A stretch of DNA of 64,000 nucleotides from Desulfarculaceae bacterium (GTDB lineage: Bacteria > Desulfobacterota > Desulfarculia > Desulfarculales > Desulfarculaceae), in NCBI GenBank assembly GCA_020444545.1, contig JAHLKT010000002.1, positions 650,870 to 714,869 of the forward strand. The letters run 5' to 3'. Both the position numbers and the translations under genes were made by a program. This document shows, in pieces, positions 3,823 to 10,004 of the stretch. Numbering within the stretch: the first letter of the stretch is position 1; each line of letters begins with the position of its first letter. The notes beneath the pieces are model-generated. The model did not search any database. It worked only from the letters and a program-made list of their open reading frames with translations, and was not told where the DNA came from.

Positions 3823-5235
3823 TTGACCAACACGCTCGCGGCCTGTCCGGCCTTAAAAAGGCCCGCCTTGCTCAACTGGGCAATATTCCTCTTTGTAACG
3901 CTATTGTTTTTCGGCACCACCGCCTGGGCCGCCACGGAGGCGCCCCGCTTGGCTCCGTTGGACAGCCAGGGCGTGCCGGTGGTGTGGTGCTATCACGGCC
4001 AGGCTCCGGACACCCGCCTGGTGGTGGTGGACAAGTCGCGCCAGCGGCTGCTGGTGCTACGCTATCTGGGCAAGCTGGGCCTGGAGTATGAATACCCCTG
4101 CGCCTCTGGCGAAAAGCCGGGCCCCAAGAGCGTGGCCCTGGACGAAAGGACGCCAGAGGGGGTCTATTTCATCACCCACCGCTACAAGGACCGCAAGGTA
4201 ACCATCTTCGGGGACCGCGCCCTGCACCTGAACTACCCCAACCCCCAGGACAAGGCTCAGGGGCGCAAGGGCGACGGCATCTACATCCACGGCACCAACA
4301 AGAGCTACAAGCCGCGCTCTTCCAACGGCTGCCTGGTCATGGCCAACCAGGACCTGGCCATGGTGGAGCCGCTCTTGGACGAGCAGTACACCCCGGTTAT
4401 CGTGGTGGAGCGCATGGCCTTGCCCAGTCCGGAGCTGCAAGCCGCGGCCTGCGAATATTTGCGCACCGTGCGTCTGGATGAGCTGCTTTCCCAGGCCGGC
4501 TCCGCCCCCACCAGCCTGGACCTGGTCAAGGCCAACGGAGCCAAGCACGATCTGAGCGGCCTGGCGGCTGATCTGCAACGCCTGGGGCCGGGCGTCAAGG
4601 CGCACACCAAGGGCCTGGCCCTGTTCGGTGCAAAGGGACAGTGGGTGCTTCTGGCCAACCAATACCTCACCGGGCCCAAGAAAAAGGGCAAGAGCAGGGG
4701 AGTGGCCCTGACCCGGCGCTTCTACCTGAGCGGCGCCGGCCCAGGCCATCTCAAGCTGGTGCAGGTGCAATGGCTGGTGCCCAACCTGGCCCAGGCTCGC
4801 CTGCTGGCCTCCTGGGCGCCGCCCAAGCAGGCCCCCGTGGCGGTGGCCAAGGCCGCGCCCGTGGACTCCCAGGCCCAAATCAAGGCCATGCTCAACGCCT
4901 GGCTGGCCGCCTGGCAACACAAGCGTCTCAAGACCTACATGAGCTTCTATGCCCGCGACTTCAACAGCGGGGGCAAGAACCGCCGGCAATGGCGCAAACA
5001 CAAGGCCTATCTGAACCGGGTCTACAAGCGCATATCCGTGCGCGCCGAGGACGTGCGGATAAGCGTGGCCGGCGACAAGGCCAAGGTCACCTTTGTGCAG
5101 CATTACCGCTCGGACTGGCACCGCGACCTGGGCCTGAAGACCCTGGAGCTGGTGCGGCACAAGGGCCGCTGGCTCATTCGCGGCGAACAGTGGGAAAAGC
5201 TGCCCGCCTCCGCGTCTCCCGCCAAGCGCGGCTAG
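3823..5235 (+). CDS. Exported L,D-transpeptidase (YkuD) with C-terminal NTF2-like domain
   Basis: Probable peptidoglycan cross-linking or lipoprotein-attaching enzyme acting in the periplasm. A hydrophobic signal segment (LNWAIFLFVTLLFFG) ends at AWA. The YkuD domain follows, with its His in IYIHGT and the catalytic Cys170 in SSNGCLVM (numbering from the start used). The last ~110 residues, from IKAMLNAWLAAW to the end, resemble the SnoaL/NTF2-like tail found on many such enzymes. The start is uncertain: TTG 3823 keeps a Lys-Arg n-region before the signal core, and TTG 3868 gives a shorter leader. It is followed by genes for a membrane-anchored protein and a bactofilin, which supports a role in local wall remodelling. 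Confidence 0.87.
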   Translation: MTNTLAACPALKRPALLNWAIFLFVTLLFFGTTAWAATEAPRLAPLDSQGVPVVWCYHGQAPDTRLVVVDKSRQRLLVLRYLGKLGLEYEYPCASGEKPGPKSVALDERTPEGVYFITHRYKDRKVTIFGDRALHLNYPNPQDKAQGRKGDGIYIHGTNKSYKPRSSNGCLVMANQDLAMVEPLLDEQYTPVIVVERMALPSPELQAAACEYLRTVRLDELLSQAGSAPTSLDLVKANGAKHDLSGLAADLQRLGPGVKAHTKGLALFGAKGQWVLLANQYLTGPKKKGKSRGVALTRRFYLSGAGPGHLKLVQVQWLVPNLAQARLLASWAPPKQAPVAVAKAAPVDSQAQIKAMLNAWLAAWQHKRLKTYMSFYARDFNSGGKNRRQWRKHKAYLNRVYKRISVRAEDVRISVAGDKAKVTFVQHYRSDWHRDLGLKTLELVRHKGRWLIRGEQWEKLPASASPAKRG

Positions 5236-5310
5236 GGAGTTCCCTTGCCCCGGCCGTGGGGAATCGATAGGATTGAATAAGCGACAACTCGCCACTCAAG
5301 AGGGGGCAAA

Positions 5311-6141
5311 TTGGCCCGGCGGTCAACCGACATCCTGCTGGTGCGCAAGGACGCCCCGGTAAAGAGAATGCGACTAGGACCCTGGTTATTCTACTTCGTC
5401 CTGCTGCTCATCTGCCTGACCGTGGCCGGCCTGGCCGGCGGCGGATACTTGCTATACCAGCAAAACCAGGCTCTCCAGGAGCTGGTCAAGGACAACAAGC
5501 GCATGAGGCTGGTGGCGCAGAACCTGGAGAGTATGCTCCGGGACCTGCAAGACCGGCTGGATCTGGCCGCCAGCCCCCAGGCCAAACCCGAGCCCAGTAC
5601 CGGGGTGAAACCGCCCCCTCCGCCGCCGCCGCGCGATCCGGCCCCGGCCGCCGCGCCTCCACCGCCGGCTCCGGCCGAGGACTCCAAGCCCGTCCCGGCC
5701 TCCAACAACGGCGAGAAGCCCTGGGTGAGCTCCTCGGCCCAGGCCCAGGCCCTGGAACCCTGGCCCACCAGCTCGGACTGGGTGGACATCCAGAAGGTGA
5801 GCACCAAGCGATCCGGCCGTGAGCTGCTGGTCTATTTCAACGTGGTCAGCAAAAAGGACAACAGCCGCAAGCCCGTTGAAGGCTACGTGGCGGTCATCCT
5901 GCGGGGCGAGCGCAAGGGCGCTCCCTGGCTGGAGGCCTGGCCGCCCATCCACCTGACCCCCCTGGGGCGGCCCGAGGACTACAAGCGGACCGCCAACTTC
6001 GAGGTCAAGCGCTACCGCCGCCTGCGGGCCCGCTTCGCCCTGGTGGACAAAAAGGTGGAGACCCTGGAGTTCCTGGTTTACGACAAGGAAGGGGAACTGG
6101 TCCTGCTCAAGCGCCATCCCATGGACCAAAAGGCGCGCTGA
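5311..6141 (+). CDS. Single-pass membrane protein with coiled coil and Pro-rich linker
   Basis: No family is recognised. The 276 residues consist of a basic cytoplasmic start (MARRSTDILLVRKDAPVKRMR), one membrane segment at about 25-48, a short coiled coil (about 50-85), a proline/alanine linker (about 90-130) and a C-terminal globular domain of ~120 residues rich in beta-type sequence. This is the layout of a periplasmic anchor or scaffold. It starts at a TTG with AGAGGGGG just upstream. It sits 75 bases after the transpeptidase and 24 before the bactofilin, so the three probably work together at the envelope. The function is inferred from position only. Confidence 0.75.
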   Translation: MARRSTDILLVRKDAPVKRMRLGPWLFYFVLLLICLTVAGLAGGGYLLYQQNQALQELVKDNKRMRLVAQNLESMLRDLQDRLDLAASPQAKPEPSTGVKPPPPPPPRDPAPAAAPPPPAPAEDSKPVPASNNGEKPWVSSSAQAQALEPWPTSSDWVDIQKVSTKRSGRELLVYFNVVSKKDNSRKPVEGYVAVILRGERKGAPWLEAWPPIHLTPLGRPEDYKRTANFEVKRYRRLRARFALVDKKVETLEFLVYDKEGELVLLKRHPMDQKAR

Positions 6142-6165
6142 GCGGGCCTCCCACGGAGCGACAAT

Positions 6166-6495
6166 TTGGCCCCCAACCAACTTACCGTCATCGCGCCGGG
6201 CACCATCGTGCGGGGAGACCTGTTCAGCCAGGACCTGTTGGTGGTCGAAGGCGGGGTGCAGGGTAACGTGGTGGCCGAGCGGGTGATCATCAAGGGCGGC
6301 GGCTGGGTGCAGGGCAATCTGCGCTGCGCCTCGCTGTCCATAGAGCTGGGGGGCATCGTGGACGGCGAGGTCACCGTGGAGGACGCGGCCCTTTTGCCGC
6401 GCCCGGTCAAGGCCGAGCAAGGGGAACTGGGCCAGCGGGACCAGAAGGCCCTGCCCAACGGCGCCGAGGAGCCCGCGCCCGGAGACGGAACCTGA
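6166..6495 (+). CDS. Bactofilin (polymer-forming cytoskeletal protein)
   Basis: 109 residues, the usual size of a short bactofilin. The central part (about residues 5-75) is a run of short beta-helix turns with repeated G-x-V/I patterns (TIVRGDLFSQDLLVVEGGVQG, then VQGNL and VDGEVTV), flanked by short disordered ends. Bactofilins form nucleotide-free filaments at the inner membrane that position cell-wall enzymes. Here the partner genes upstream are a YkuD transpeptidase and a membrane-anchored protein. The start is TTG with GGAG seven bases upstream; the stop overlaps the cupin ATG. Confidence 0.88.
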   Translation: MAPNQLTVIAPGTIVRGDLFSQDLLVVEGGVQGNVVAERVIIKGGGWVQGNLRCASLSIELGGIVDGEVTVEDAALLPRPVKAEQGELGQRDQKALPNGAEEPAPGDGT

Positions 6496-6854
6496 TGCTG
6501 GTCAAGCGGGCCGACGCGCTGCCGGTGTTCACGGCCACGGACGGCTGCTCCCTGGCCGAGGTCATCCACCCCAACAACGACGCCACCAGCCCGGGGGTGA
6601 GCCTGTCCCGGGCCAGCCTGCCGCCCAAGGGGGTCACCAGCCCCCATCGCCTGGATTTCGTGGAGATCTATTACGTGCTGCGGGGACGGGGGGTCATGCA
6701 CCTGGACGGCGAGTCCGCCGAGATCGGCCCGGAGAGCTGCGTGTACGTGCCTCCGGGAACGGTGCAATGGGTGGCCAACCCCGGCCCCGGGGAATTGGTG
6801 TTTCTGTGCGTGTGCCAGCCGGCCTGGAGCGCCGAGGGCGACCACCCGGCCTGA
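6495..6854 (+). CDS. Small cupin-2 domain protein
   Basis: A single double-stranded beta-helix of 119 residues. Cupin motif 1 is visible as SPHRLDFVEIYYVLRGRG with a trailing MHLDGE, and motif 2 as VYVPPGTVQWVANPG. The His/Glu pair of motif 1 is present (H, then E of FVEIYY). Motif 2 has Gln in place of the usual His, so metal binding may be weak or absent. Its ATG overlaps the bactofilin stop (TGATG), so it is translationally coupled. Substrate unknown; cupins of this size include sugar-binding and regulatory proteins as well as enzymes. Confidence 0.82.
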   Translation: MLVKRADALPVFTATDGCSLAEVIHPNNDATSPGVSLSRASLPPKGVTSPHRLDFVEIYYVLRGRGVMHLDGESAEIGPESCVYVPPGTVQWVANPGPGELVFLCVCQPAWSAEGDHPA

Positions 6855-7395: not shown

Positions 7396-8496
7396 TTGAG
7401 CCCCGACCAGGCCCCGGTCTGCCTGCTCCCGCAGGGACTGGCCGGTGCCGCTCCGCATGATGGCCCTCCCGCCGTATTGCTGAAGTCCGGCCGGATCGCG
7501 GCCCTGGGTGGCGAGGCCCTGGCCGCCGGGGCTCCCCGCAGGGAGATGCCCGGCCTGTGGCTCTCGGCCGCGCCCATCGACGCCCACGTGCACTTGCAGA
7601 TGCGCTCCGGCTTGCAGGCGGCCTTGGACGCCTGCAACTGGGCCGGGCTGGCCGCGGTGCGCGACCTGGGCCACCGCGCCGCGCAGCAAACGCCCCGCCG
7701 AAACGATCAAGCTCCCTTGGTGGTGGCGGCCGGGGTGGGGCTGGGAGCGGTAGGCGAGGCGGCCTATTGGCTGGCCGAGCCCGTGGCCGGAGCCGAGGGC
7801 TTTGCCCGCGCGGTGGATGAGCGCGCGGCCCAGGGCTGCGGGGTCATCAAGCTATTCGCCACAGGTCTGCTGGACATCGAAAACGTGGGTCAGGTGTGCC
7901 ATCCCCAGGCCCTGAGTGCCGAGGAGGTGCGGGCGGCGGTGGAGCATGCTCATGCCGCCGGGCTAAAGGTGTCGGTGCACGCCAACGGCGAGGCGGCGGT
8001 CAGGCAGGCGATAGAGCAGGGGGCGGACTGCATCGAGCACGGCTATTTTCTGGGCCGCGATACCCTGGCCCGCATGGCCGAGCTGGGGGTGGAGTGGTCG
8101 CCCACCTTGGCGCCCATCGAGGGCCACGCCGTTGATCCGGCCGGGCGCAACACCCCGGCCCAGCGGGCGGCCTGGAGCGAGATCGGGGCCCTGCAAAAAG
8201 AGCAGATGCGCCAAGCCGTGGAGCTGGGAGTGCGCCTGGTCCTGGGCAGCGACGCGGGCTCCTACGGCGTGCCCCACGCGGAGGGCGCATTTTTGGAGAT
8301 GCGCGCCTGGTTGGAGGCCGGGCTGGCCCCGGAGTTGGTGTATGATGCCTCCACCCGCCGGGCGGCAAAGGCCCTGGGCCTGGCCGGAGAGCTGGGGGGC
8401 ATCTTCCCCGGGGCCCGCGCTTGGCTTTTGGGCACGCGGCAAGACCCGCGCGGCGATCCCTTGCAGCTGGCCCGCCCCCTCTGGCGGAGTTTTTAG
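7396..8496 (+). CDS. Amidohydrolase-superfamily metal-dependent hydrolase
   Basis: 366 residues. Metal ligands of the superfamily are in order: HxH in PIDAHVHLQ, a Lys in GVIKLFATG, His in SVHANGEA, His in IEHGYF and Asp in LGSDAGSYG. This is the pattern of the imidazolonepropionase/prolidase-like branch with a binuclear metal centre, and no signal peptide is visible, so it is probably cytoplasmic. The N-terminal beta-sandwich is short. The TTG start lies four bases after the flavodoxin stop. The substrate is not known. The stop overlaps the stop of the next, convergent gene by four bases. Confidence 0.82.
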   Translation: MSPDQAPVCLLPQGLAGAAPHDGPPAVLLKSGRIAALGGEALAAGAPRREMPGLWLSAAPIDAHVHLQMRSGLQAALDACNWAGLAAVRDLGHRAAQQTPRRNDQAPLVVAAGVGLGAVGEAAYWLAEPVAGAEGFARAVDERAAQGCGVIKLFATGLLDIENVGQVCHPQALSAEEVRAAVEHAHAAGLKVSVHANGEAAVRQAIEQGADCIEHGYFLGRDTLARMAELGVEWSPTLAPIEGHAVDPAGRNTPAQRAAWSEIGALQKEQMRQAVELGVRLVLGSDAGSYGVPHAEGAFLEMRAWLEAGLAPELVYDASTRRAAKALGLAGELGGIFPGARAWLLGTRQDPRGDPLQLARPLWRSF

Positions 8497-9092
8497 CCCA
8501 TCAGGGCGCGCAAACGGCCGGGGTAGTAGAAGACGTATTCGCGGGCCAGGGATGTGTAGCGTTTGACGGCGTAGTCCTTGAGCAGGGCGAAGAACTCCTG
8601 CAAGTTGCTCACCGGCGCGACCATGCGTTCGAATTGGCGCGGGTCGGCCGCGTCCTGGTTGGTGGGCGGGATGAAGCGGCCCTCGCCGCCCCGCCAGCGG
8701 AAGCCGAGCCGGTCGGAGAGCTGGCCAACTTCCTGATACACCCGGCGGATCAAGTCGGTGCGCAGGATGTCCGAGGGAGCGTTGAGCAGGGCCTCCAATA
8801 GGCAGGCCAGATAGCAGACCAGCTCCTGGGCCTCGGTGTCGTCGCGGTGGCGCAGAAAGCCCAAGGCCGTGTCCTGGGTGCCGCCCTCCAGGGCGAAATG
8901 AGGGGGCATTTGGCCCGATGGGTCCTGGCCGCCCTCCAGGCATTGCTCGCGGTACTCTTCGTACAGGGCCGCCGAGCGTACGTGCACCAGAAGCACCCGC
9001 CCAGTGTGCCAGGGCCCCCAGCGCAGGCGCATGGGCTGGTCGGTGATAACATAATCGCGCCCGTCGCCGGGAAAGGTAATGACTTGATCCAA
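8493..9092 (-). CDS. Conserved-looking cytoplasmic protein of unknown function
   Basis: Not recognised. From the TTG at 9092, which has AGGGG seven bases upstream, it encodes 199 residues with no signal or membrane segment. It is fairly rich in acidic residues and aromatic amino acids (RLRWGPWHTGRVLLV, KRYTSLAREYVFYYPGRL). Codon use matches the neighbours, and the frame stays open far beyond the start, into the transglycosylase gene. Start 9092 would make it overlap the divergent transglycosylase start at 9084 by nine bases. An internal ATG (MRLRWGPW) is the alternative and would free space for a promoter. Confidence 0.6.
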   Translation of the reverse strand: MDQVITFPGDGRDYVITDQPMRLRWGPWHTGRVLLVHVRSAALYEEYREQCLEGGQDPSGQMPPHFALEGGTQDTALGFLRHRDDTEAQELVCYLACLLEALLNAPSDILRTDLIRRVYQEVGQLSDRLGFRWRGGEGRFIPPTNQDAADPRQFERMVAPVSNLQEFFALLKDYAVKRYTSLAREYVFYYPGRLRALMG

Positions 9093-10004
9093 CGCACCGC
9101 CCCTAGTGAAAGCATCTCGAATGCCGGTAGGCCAAAAACTCAATTTAGCAGATGGGCCTGGCCCGGAAAAGCCTTGCTTGCGCTTTGCCTGCTCCTGGCC
9201 GCGCTTCCCGCCTGGGCCGGCAACCAGGTCCTGGCCCCGCTCAAGCCGGAGCTGGAATCCATGGGCTATACCTCGGCCCAGGCCGATGCCCTGTTGAAGG
9301 CCAAGGGGGTGCGCTTCGAGGCCAGGCTCATGGCCGCCTTGCTGGCTCCCAAGGAGACCAGCCTCAATTACGCCCAGTTCCTGGGTAAGCAGCCGGTGGC
9401 CGCGGCCCGCCGGTTCATGAAAAAGCACGCCAAGGACCTGGCCCAGGCTGAGAAAGAGAGCGGGGTTCCCGGCTCGGTGGTGGTGGCCATCCTCACGGTG
9501 GAAAGCCGTTTGGGGCGCTACGTGGGGCGCTGGTCAGCCTTCAACGTGCTGGCCTCCCAGGCGGTGCTAGACACCCCCGAGGCCCAGCGGCTCTTGGCCA
9601 AGCGCTGGCCCAAGAAAAAGAGGGCCCAGCTGAAGACCGAGAAGACCCAGGCGCGTTTCGCCAAGCGGGCGGCCTGGGCCCGCCGCGAGCTGGGCTCGCT
9701 GATCAAGCTGGCCAAGAAGGAAGGCCGCTCGCCGCTGAGCTACAAGGGCTCGGTGGCCGGAGCCATGGGCATGGCCCAGTTCATGCCCAGCTCTTTGCTG
9801 GCTTGGGGCAAGGACGGCAACCGCGACGGCGAGATGGACCTGACCCATCCAACGGACGCCATTTTCTCGGTGGCCAACTATTTGCGCAAGCACGGCTGGA
9901 AGCCCGGCCTGAACTACAAGGGCCGCTTCAAGGTGATCCTCACCTACAACAACTCCAAGCCCTACGCCCGGACCGTCTTGGCCCTGGCCGAGAGGCTGCG
10001 GTGA
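9084..10004 (+). CDS. MltB-type lytic murein transglycosylase
   Basis: Periplasmic enzyme that cleaves the MurNAc-GlcNAc bond to give 1,6-anhydro ends. About 306 residues: a signal peptide with the core LLALCLLLAALPAWA, then an SLT_2-type domain. The catalytic Glu140 is in LTVESRLGRYVG, and further signatures are FNVLASQAVLDTP and GAMGMAQFMPSS. The C-terminus (FKVILTYNNSKPYARTVLALAERL) is typical of the family. The TTG start has AAAGG eight bases upstream. Its stop overlaps the start of the addB-like gene (GTGA), which ties a cell-wall enzyme to a DNA-repair operon. Confidence 0.9.
   Translation: MIQRTAPSESISNAGRPKTQFSRWAWPGKALLALCLLLAALPAWAGNQVLAPLKPELESMGYTSAQADALLKAKGVRFEARLMAALLAPKETSLNYAQFLGKQPVAAARRFMKKHAKDLAQAEKESGVPGSVVVAILTVESRLGRYVGRWSAFNVLASQAVLDTPEAQRLLAKRWPKKKRAQLKTEKTQARFAKRAAWARRELGSLIKLAKKEGRSPLSYKGSVAGAMGMAQFMPSSLLAWGKDGNRDGEMDLTHPTDAIFSVANYLRKHGWKPGLNYKGRFKVILTYNNSKPYARTVLALAERLR

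Follow-up and report, generated by a model that had tools for sequence, protein, structure and literature searches.

Gene content of the locus

The DNA analysed here, referred to as the window, is a stretch of 64,000 nucleotides from a Desulfarculaceae bacterium (contig JAHLKT010000002.1), near the start of which three open frames follow one another on the plus strand. They encode a YkuD protein (3823–5235), a bitopic membrane protein of an unnamed family, hereafter the anchor (5311–6141), and a short bactofilin (6166–6495). An earlier note had described a YkuD enzyme, a membrane protein with a coil and a proline-rich linker, and a bactofilin in series, and the frames do lie at that place and on one strand; the range it gave for the cluster, 3823–6854, contains all three genes but also takes in a gene outside the trio, at 6495–6854, which encodes a Cupin_2 protein (Pfam search).

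The three-gene series is not a chance arrangement, because the order YkuD–anchor–bactofilin recurs across sister genomes and because the ratio of nonsynonymous to synonymous substitution rates (dN/dS), in a comparison of the window with L065, a near relative, is 0.26 for YkuD, 0.19 for the anchor and 0.35 for the bactofilin (G, L and f numbers are our handles for genomes, loci and families). Purifying selection thus acts on all three genes. The series in the window represents a shortened version of a longer operon: the anchor and bactofilin frames are separated by only 24 bases (6142–6165, plus strand), and at this point the other genera of the family hold a gene of about 1.8 kb for an M99 carboxypeptidase.

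The YkuD protein and its probable class

The start of the YkuD gene is uncertain, as the frame is open from 3685, and a start at 3823 yields a probable signal peptide (about 3823–3930, judged by eye). Both recognizable domains score above their Pfam cut-offs, the YkuD domain (PF03734) at 67.8 bits and the C-terminal NTF2-like domain, Cds6_C (PF24125; 4867–5199), at 54.2 bits against a cut-off of 27. The best phmmer match among PDB sequences, covering both domains, is Bd1075 of Bdellovibrio (7o21, E 4.7e-30); five distinct sequences were matched in all, the others being Pgp2 (6xj6 and 6xj7), Csd6 (4xzz) and, weakly, 8ikr, which the fold list gives as DpaA. In the AlphaFold2 model (mean predicted local distance difference test score, pLDDT, 79.9), NTF2-like helices and strands occupy residues 349–459, and the top six Foldseek rows are all Bd1075, Pgp2 or Csd6. 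The template modelling (TM) scores of the Foldseek rows are low (0.25–0.45), probably owing to an extra middle domain and to the placement of the domains.

The active-site stretch (4288–4338) holds a catalytic-type histidine (residue 156) and cysteine (residue 170), both of which are kept in the nine relatives read. The residue two positions after the cysteine is valine in the window and valine or threonine in those relatives; most L,D-transpeptidases carry arginine there, and Bd1075 is described as having valine (PMC8938487). The rule of an arginine after the cysteine is also drawn from the DpaA paper (PMC8263019). Because the best matches by sequence and by fold are the curvature-making L,D-carboxypeptidases Bd1075, Pgp2 and Csd6, and because the transpeptidase arginine is absent, the YkuD protein probably belongs to the L,D-carboxypeptidase group and not to the L,D-transpeptidases, as the earlier note had taken it to do. 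Like Bd1075, it pairs a YkuD with an NTF2-like domain; unlike Bd1075, it has an additional middle domain and an anchor gene alongside, whereas bd1075 is reported to be monocistronic, with the NTF2 domain performing the targeting (PMC8938487).

A membrane anchor resembling LmdC in its N-terminal half

The anchor has no Pfam family over the cut-off, and no M23 family appears among its Pfam matches up to E 1. In the AlphaFold2 model (13 sequences, mean pLDDT 76.1), strands 6–12 and 15–22 form a predicted N-terminal cytoplasmic β-hairpin (5326–5376; pLDDT 60–82 by blocks), followed by a single helix, residues 24–86, that would cross the membrane and run on into a probable coiled coil (5380–5568). 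A proline-rich linker of low confidence (residues 90–140; 5578–5730; pLDDT mostly below 50) leads to a predicted periplasmic domain of eight β-strands (residues 158–270; 5782–6120). The hairpin pattern is similar throughout the anchor alignment. A genome-contig scan with the single window anchor gave no match, and an alignment-based scan gave 13 loci.

By VIA-align 2, the β-domain superposes on the sandwiches of family-2 glycosidases (best Z 10.9, root-mean-square deviation 2.3, 94 aligned), which we take to be immunoglobulin (Ig)-like. The modelled sandwich is a common fold and carries no indication of function. Foldseek returned a single match for the anchor at E ≤ 0.001, a cytochrome, of which we rely only on the shared β-sandwich. 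As to an SH3 domain like that of Csd5, the structural rows point to β-sandwiches, with families outside the rows also possible. The only PDB sequences that the anchor profile matched were human butyrophilins and an HLA chain; these weak matches were set aside.

Like LmdC, the M23 peptidase partner of BacA, the anchor combines an N-terminal hairpin with a membrane helix and coil and is encoded next to a bactofilin; unlike LmdC, it has an Ig-like domain in place of M23, and the enzyme is a separate protein. Hyphomonas LmdC is reported to bind bactofilin via its N-terminal region, and changes in the hairpin to abolish LmdC localisation in Rhodospirillum (PMC10945521). The likeness of the anchor to LmdC is seen both in the structure prediction and in N-terminal profile matches to M23 proteins. 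Among 21 inspected hits of a whole-genome search that matched in the N-terminal part only (two more, G165 C121 and G190 C470, are left out of this number), 17 are M23 proteins, four of which directly adjoin a bactofilin (G139, G176, G182, G195), and one of the remaining four (G153) is a hairpin-helix-coil protein of 111 residues that also adjoins a bactofilin. The N-terminal profile run at E 1e-3 against 1052 open frames found 47 anchors, 16 M23 proteins and 2 others, many of the 16 M23 loci having been chosen because of such matches. A model of the M23 hairpin scored 37 anchors apart from 97 controls with a Mann–Whitney p of 5.8e-10, which is not a probability since the rows are mutually related, and at least 2 bits were reached by 15/37 anchors versus 1/97 controls (these numbers leave out 4 of 101 controls, which derived from M23 loci, and 2 of 39 anchors whose lead was too short). 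We place the anchor as an unnamed family that may work like LmdC, yet it is not an LmdC peptidase.

A short bactofilin

The third gene encodes a short member of the bactofilins, with a core about a third below the length of the Pfam model (PF04519, 42.3 bits against a cut-off of 27.9, covering positions 1–66 of 98). Copies from the family give weak and mostly partial profile matches, which fall in the N-terminal part for some copies and in the C-terminal part for others, and similar short matches are also seen in genera with the longer operon. The missing end is ambiguous, as Pfam and MAFFT pick different registers of the repeats: aligned by MAFFT with the other bactofilin of the genome, 19 copies (local tblastn segments) fall on the C-terminal rungs. 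One MAFFT alignment, subject to the same ambiguity of register, puts valine at the place of BacA F130, a phenylalanine near the end of the β-helix that is described as important for polymerisation (PMC12448750), a process in which bactofilins join through the ends of their β-helices. According to the same source, the commonest N-terminal bactofilin motif in the phylum differs from the usual membrane-targeting one, which a subset has, and in Caulobacter an overproduced client protein can substitute for the membrane-targeting peptide of bactofilin. The second bactofilin of the genome (G000:C7:40044-40331; L056, 6967–7401, minus strand) matches profile positions 2–97 of 98 and has ATP synthase genes on one side and a TPR-RodA-PBP2 group on the other (neighbours named by eye).

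M99 and YkuD genes in the Desulfarculaceae

In the other Desulfarculaceae genera (G008–G018), each of the 11 anchor loci has a gene for a Csd4-type M99 carboxypeptidase placed between the anchor and bactofilin genes, and YkuD precedes the anchor in 10/11, the contig of G014 ending at that point. The anchor was not found in the twelfth other-genus genome (G019, 54% complete). The PDB matches of the M99 protein are Helicobacter pylori Csd4 entries (4wck, 4q6m). The family loci include those of Desulfocarbo indianensis (L068), which carries all four genes and is described as vibrio-shaped (PMC4559730), the one cell shape that the literature on related genera yielded, of Dethiosulfatarculus sandiegensis (L071) and of several metagenome-assembled genomes, and the order YkuD, anchor, M99, bactofilin is found also in the sister family of the order (G020, L103).

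No M99 match was found in any of the eight genomes of the window genus, by protein search or by PF17033 at E 0.1, and this absence concerns that genus only, as the related genera carry the gene. The gene missing from the window is M99 and not M23, which the earlier note had supposed to be replaced. Anchor and bactofilin are adjacent in 8/8 genomes, including three without a YkuD match (G004, G006, G007), in whose loci no YkuD remnant scored better than E 0.7; in G003 the YkuD gene sits away from the anchor, at the end of a contig. The flanking dehydrogenase was used for a tree, in which the seven usable rows of the window genus form one clade (99/98, midpoint root), within which the YkuD-less genomes share a clade with G005. 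A single loss of YkuD is possible, one and two losses not being told apart.

Distribution of the anchor in the phylum

The phylum (Thermodesulfobacteriota) was sampled by 148 genomes, with stretches of 3 to 19 kb read around the matches, which makes an absence less certain than a presence. At E ≤ 1e-4, 41 of these genomes gave a match to a profile built from 28 anchors: 6 are Desulfarculaceae, 23 further genomes have an anchor, and the other 12 show weak matches confined to the N-terminal part. Seven of the 23 contributed sequences to the profile, so their match is built in. The match extends over the whole protein or the C-terminal domain in 20 of the 23, and over positions 4–184 of 265 in G129, G158 and G185. 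In G071, counted with the 20, the match is to the Ig-like domain alone, fused to YkuD. A YkuD enzyme that ends in an anchor-type Ig-like domain is found in two families, at L082 and L097.

A bactofilin lies beside the anchor in 11 of these 23 genomes, from six families (G071, G074, G094, G110, G125, G140, G143, G157, G170, G182, G194). Because bactofilins occur in 97/148 genomes with roughly one match each, adjacency by chance would be well under 1% per genome. A YkuD gene was found in 15/23 and M99 in 9/23, and either a bactofilin or a YkuD gene of this type stands beside the anchor in 21/23. M99 itself occurs in 26/148 genomes, 21 of them outside the family, where YkuD adjoins it in 13/21 and no YkuD gene was found in the stretch read in 8/21.

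The loci differ in which partners they hold. In G094 (L087), a single strand carries, one after another, YkuD, anchor, M99, M23 and bactofilin. G157 (L199), of the same genus, gave no M99 match; there a YkuD gene in two frames is followed by anchor, M23 and bactofilin. In families f4–f6, YkuD, anchor and M99 occur together in 12 of 13 loci read, which were picked from anchor, M99 and YkuD matches. In family f21, five genomes without an M99 match carry anchor and bactofilin side by side, and the stretch read there (3.1–8.0 kb; the contig of G110 has only 3,076 bases) contains neither YkuD nor M99. The anchor is therefore the common element of the locus, being found with the enzymes without bactofilin and with bactofilin without the enzymes; this favours a bridge between the two, though it is no proof of contact. 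The idea that YkuD stands in for M23 finds no support in G094, which carries YkuD, M99, M23 and bactofilin together. When 34 distinct bactofilin loci among the matches listed were scanned with an M23 model, each together with 1.5 kb on either side, an M23 gene turned up in one, so linkage of M23 to bactofilin is not the rule in those loci. Listings of open-access papers on bactofilins, LmdC, Csd4/Csd6, Pgp1/Pgp2 and YkuD showed no operon of the kind described here.

Several further features were observed in and near these loci. The M99 gene of G125 (L091, 5710–7241) and the YkuD gene of G157 (L199, 4913–6316) are each split into two frames, by decay or assembly error, with the anchor and bactofilin frames unbroken, and L106 (2701–4122) has two tandem anchor-type frames between YkuD and M99. 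In D. indianensis, an ankyrin-repeat protein sits between the bactofilin and a flavodoxin-like gene (L042, 10112–10879), where the window genus and G011 have a cupin. On the minus strand of the window, 8493–9428 encodes a protein without a Pfam match up to E 1, which lies beside a transglycosylase gene in many sister loci.

A candidate wall-trimming module and its alternatives

We propose that the locus is a reduced peptidoglycan-trimming, cell-shape module in which the anchor docks on bactofilin and positions secreted carboxypeptidases, a reading to which we give a probability of about 0.58. The anchor, as a non-catalytic relative of LmdC, would dock its cytoplasmic hairpin on the bactofilin, span the membrane with its helix, and hold or position the enzymes with its periplasmic Ig-like domain. 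In the fuller form of the operon, YkuD would cut tetrapeptide stems to tripeptides and M99 would trim these further, to dipeptides, following the order of the Pgp2 and Pgp1 pathway. The window genus would retain the first step only, comparable to the single step shown for Bd1075, and trimming along the filament would bend the cell or alter its growth. Coupling of bactofilin to periplasmic wall-trimming enzymes is the most likely role of the anchor; the bridge that the earlier note had suggested is in part supported, by the predicted structure, the conserved order and an N-terminal half that matches M23 proteins of LmdC make-up. The analysis itself establishes which genes are present and in what synteny, that M99 is absent, that selection is purifying, and what the domain predictions and profile matches are, whereas the enzyme activity, the binding of hairpin to bactofilin, the contact of the Ig-like domain with the enzymes and the effect on shape are inferred.

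The helical-shape proteins of H. pylori and Campylobacter jejuni (Csd4/Pgp1, Csd6/Pgp2, CcmA, Csd5) likewise include a YkuD-NTF2 enzyme, a bactofilin and a bitopic protein, as well as the M99 enzyme present in the related genera; unlike them, the genes here form one operon, and the window has no M99 gene. Csd5 offers a precedent for an anchor that bridges bactofilin to the periplasm, as its cytoplasmic N-terminus is reported to bind CcmA and its SH3 domain peptidoglycan, whereas the periplasmic domain of the anchor looks Ig-like (PMC9507126 for Csd5).

A number of points weigh against this proposal. In Bdellovibrio the enzyme's own NTF2 domain is described as doing the targeting (PMC8938487), so an anchor may be unneeded. 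The enzymes can do without it, since in 4 of the 13 YkuD-M99 pairs (L085, L090, L095, L099) none was found. The earlier note had itself named, as evidence that would count against the bridge, anchor homologues without bactofilin or L,D-transpeptidase neighbours: outside the family, anchors with neither partner occur in 2/23 genomes (G164, G178) and, with the partners taken singly, no bactofilin lies beside the anchor in 12/23 and no such YkuD gene is found in 8/23, within the stretch examined. In G059, a genome 61% complete, an anchor was found but not a single bactofilin match, and bactofilin is found in 0/13 of the f4–f6 stretches. Taken by itself the hairpin is weak evidence: the hairpin-only anchor profile reaches M23 proteins at best at E 0.16, and with the M23 hairpin model the window anchor gets −1.2 bits. 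The sequence similarity between anchor and M23 proteins thus rests on hairpin, helix and coil jointly, and composition may contribute. Finally, the short bactofilin may not polymerise normally.

The strongest alternative, which we nevertheless consider unlikely, is that the anchor serves the enzymes or the elongation machinery only, with bactofilin a neighbour by operon history and the hairpin binding something else. The f4–f6 trios, with no bactofilin in the stretch, speak for this, but in the five f21 genomes the anchor adjoins bactofilin with neither enzyme gene in the stretch, and the window genus retains anchor and bactofilin where M99, and even YkuD, is absent. We find it distinctly improbable that YkuD truly acts as an L,D-transpeptidase, or like DpaA as an amidase releasing proteins from peptidoglycan, and that the anchor positions this activity. 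The sole NCBIfam match of YkuD is LdtF_DpaA_YafK, solved DpaA stands at rank 11 of the fold list, DpaA-type proteins also lack arginine after the cysteine, and DpaA-like proteins are reported from Deltaproteobacteria without Lpp (PMC8263019); that match, however, reaches 26 bits against a cut-off of 365, Bd1075, Pgp2 and Csd6 rank well above DpaA by both sequence and fold, and the protein has an NTF2-like domain and no transpeptidase arginine. Least probable of all is a module in decay that, in the window genus, has ceased to shape the cell, as the unmatched M99 (8/8) and YkuD (3/8) genes and the short bactofilin might suggest, since the dN/dS values, the catalytic-type histidine and cysteine and the similar short bactofilin matches in genera with the longer operon all speak against it.

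Implications for the targeting of wall-trimming enzymes

How curvature-making trimming enzymes are steered to one side of the cell is largely open; the Bd1075 paper states that, before the result on the NTF2 domain, no mechanistic basis for such targeting was known (PMC8938487). A conserved anchor gene tied to trimming enzymes and bactofilins is a concrete candidate for this task, one for which G094 supplies a five-gene operon, and other genomes a natural series of losses, as test material. More tentatively, and with rather less confidence than in the proposal for the window itself, the anchor family may be an LmdC-derived targeting adaptor for curvature enzymes in Thermodesulfobacteriota, in which an Ig-like domain has replaced the peptidase, such that separate L,D- and D,L-carboxypeptidases, joined in G094 by an M23 endopeptidase, could be directed by one bactofilin structure to chosen sites in the wall. 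Such an adaptor might also help to attach to the membrane those bactofilins that are without the usual targeting peptide, and the anchor could then be part of the reason why the commonest N-terminal bactofilin motif of this phylum differs.

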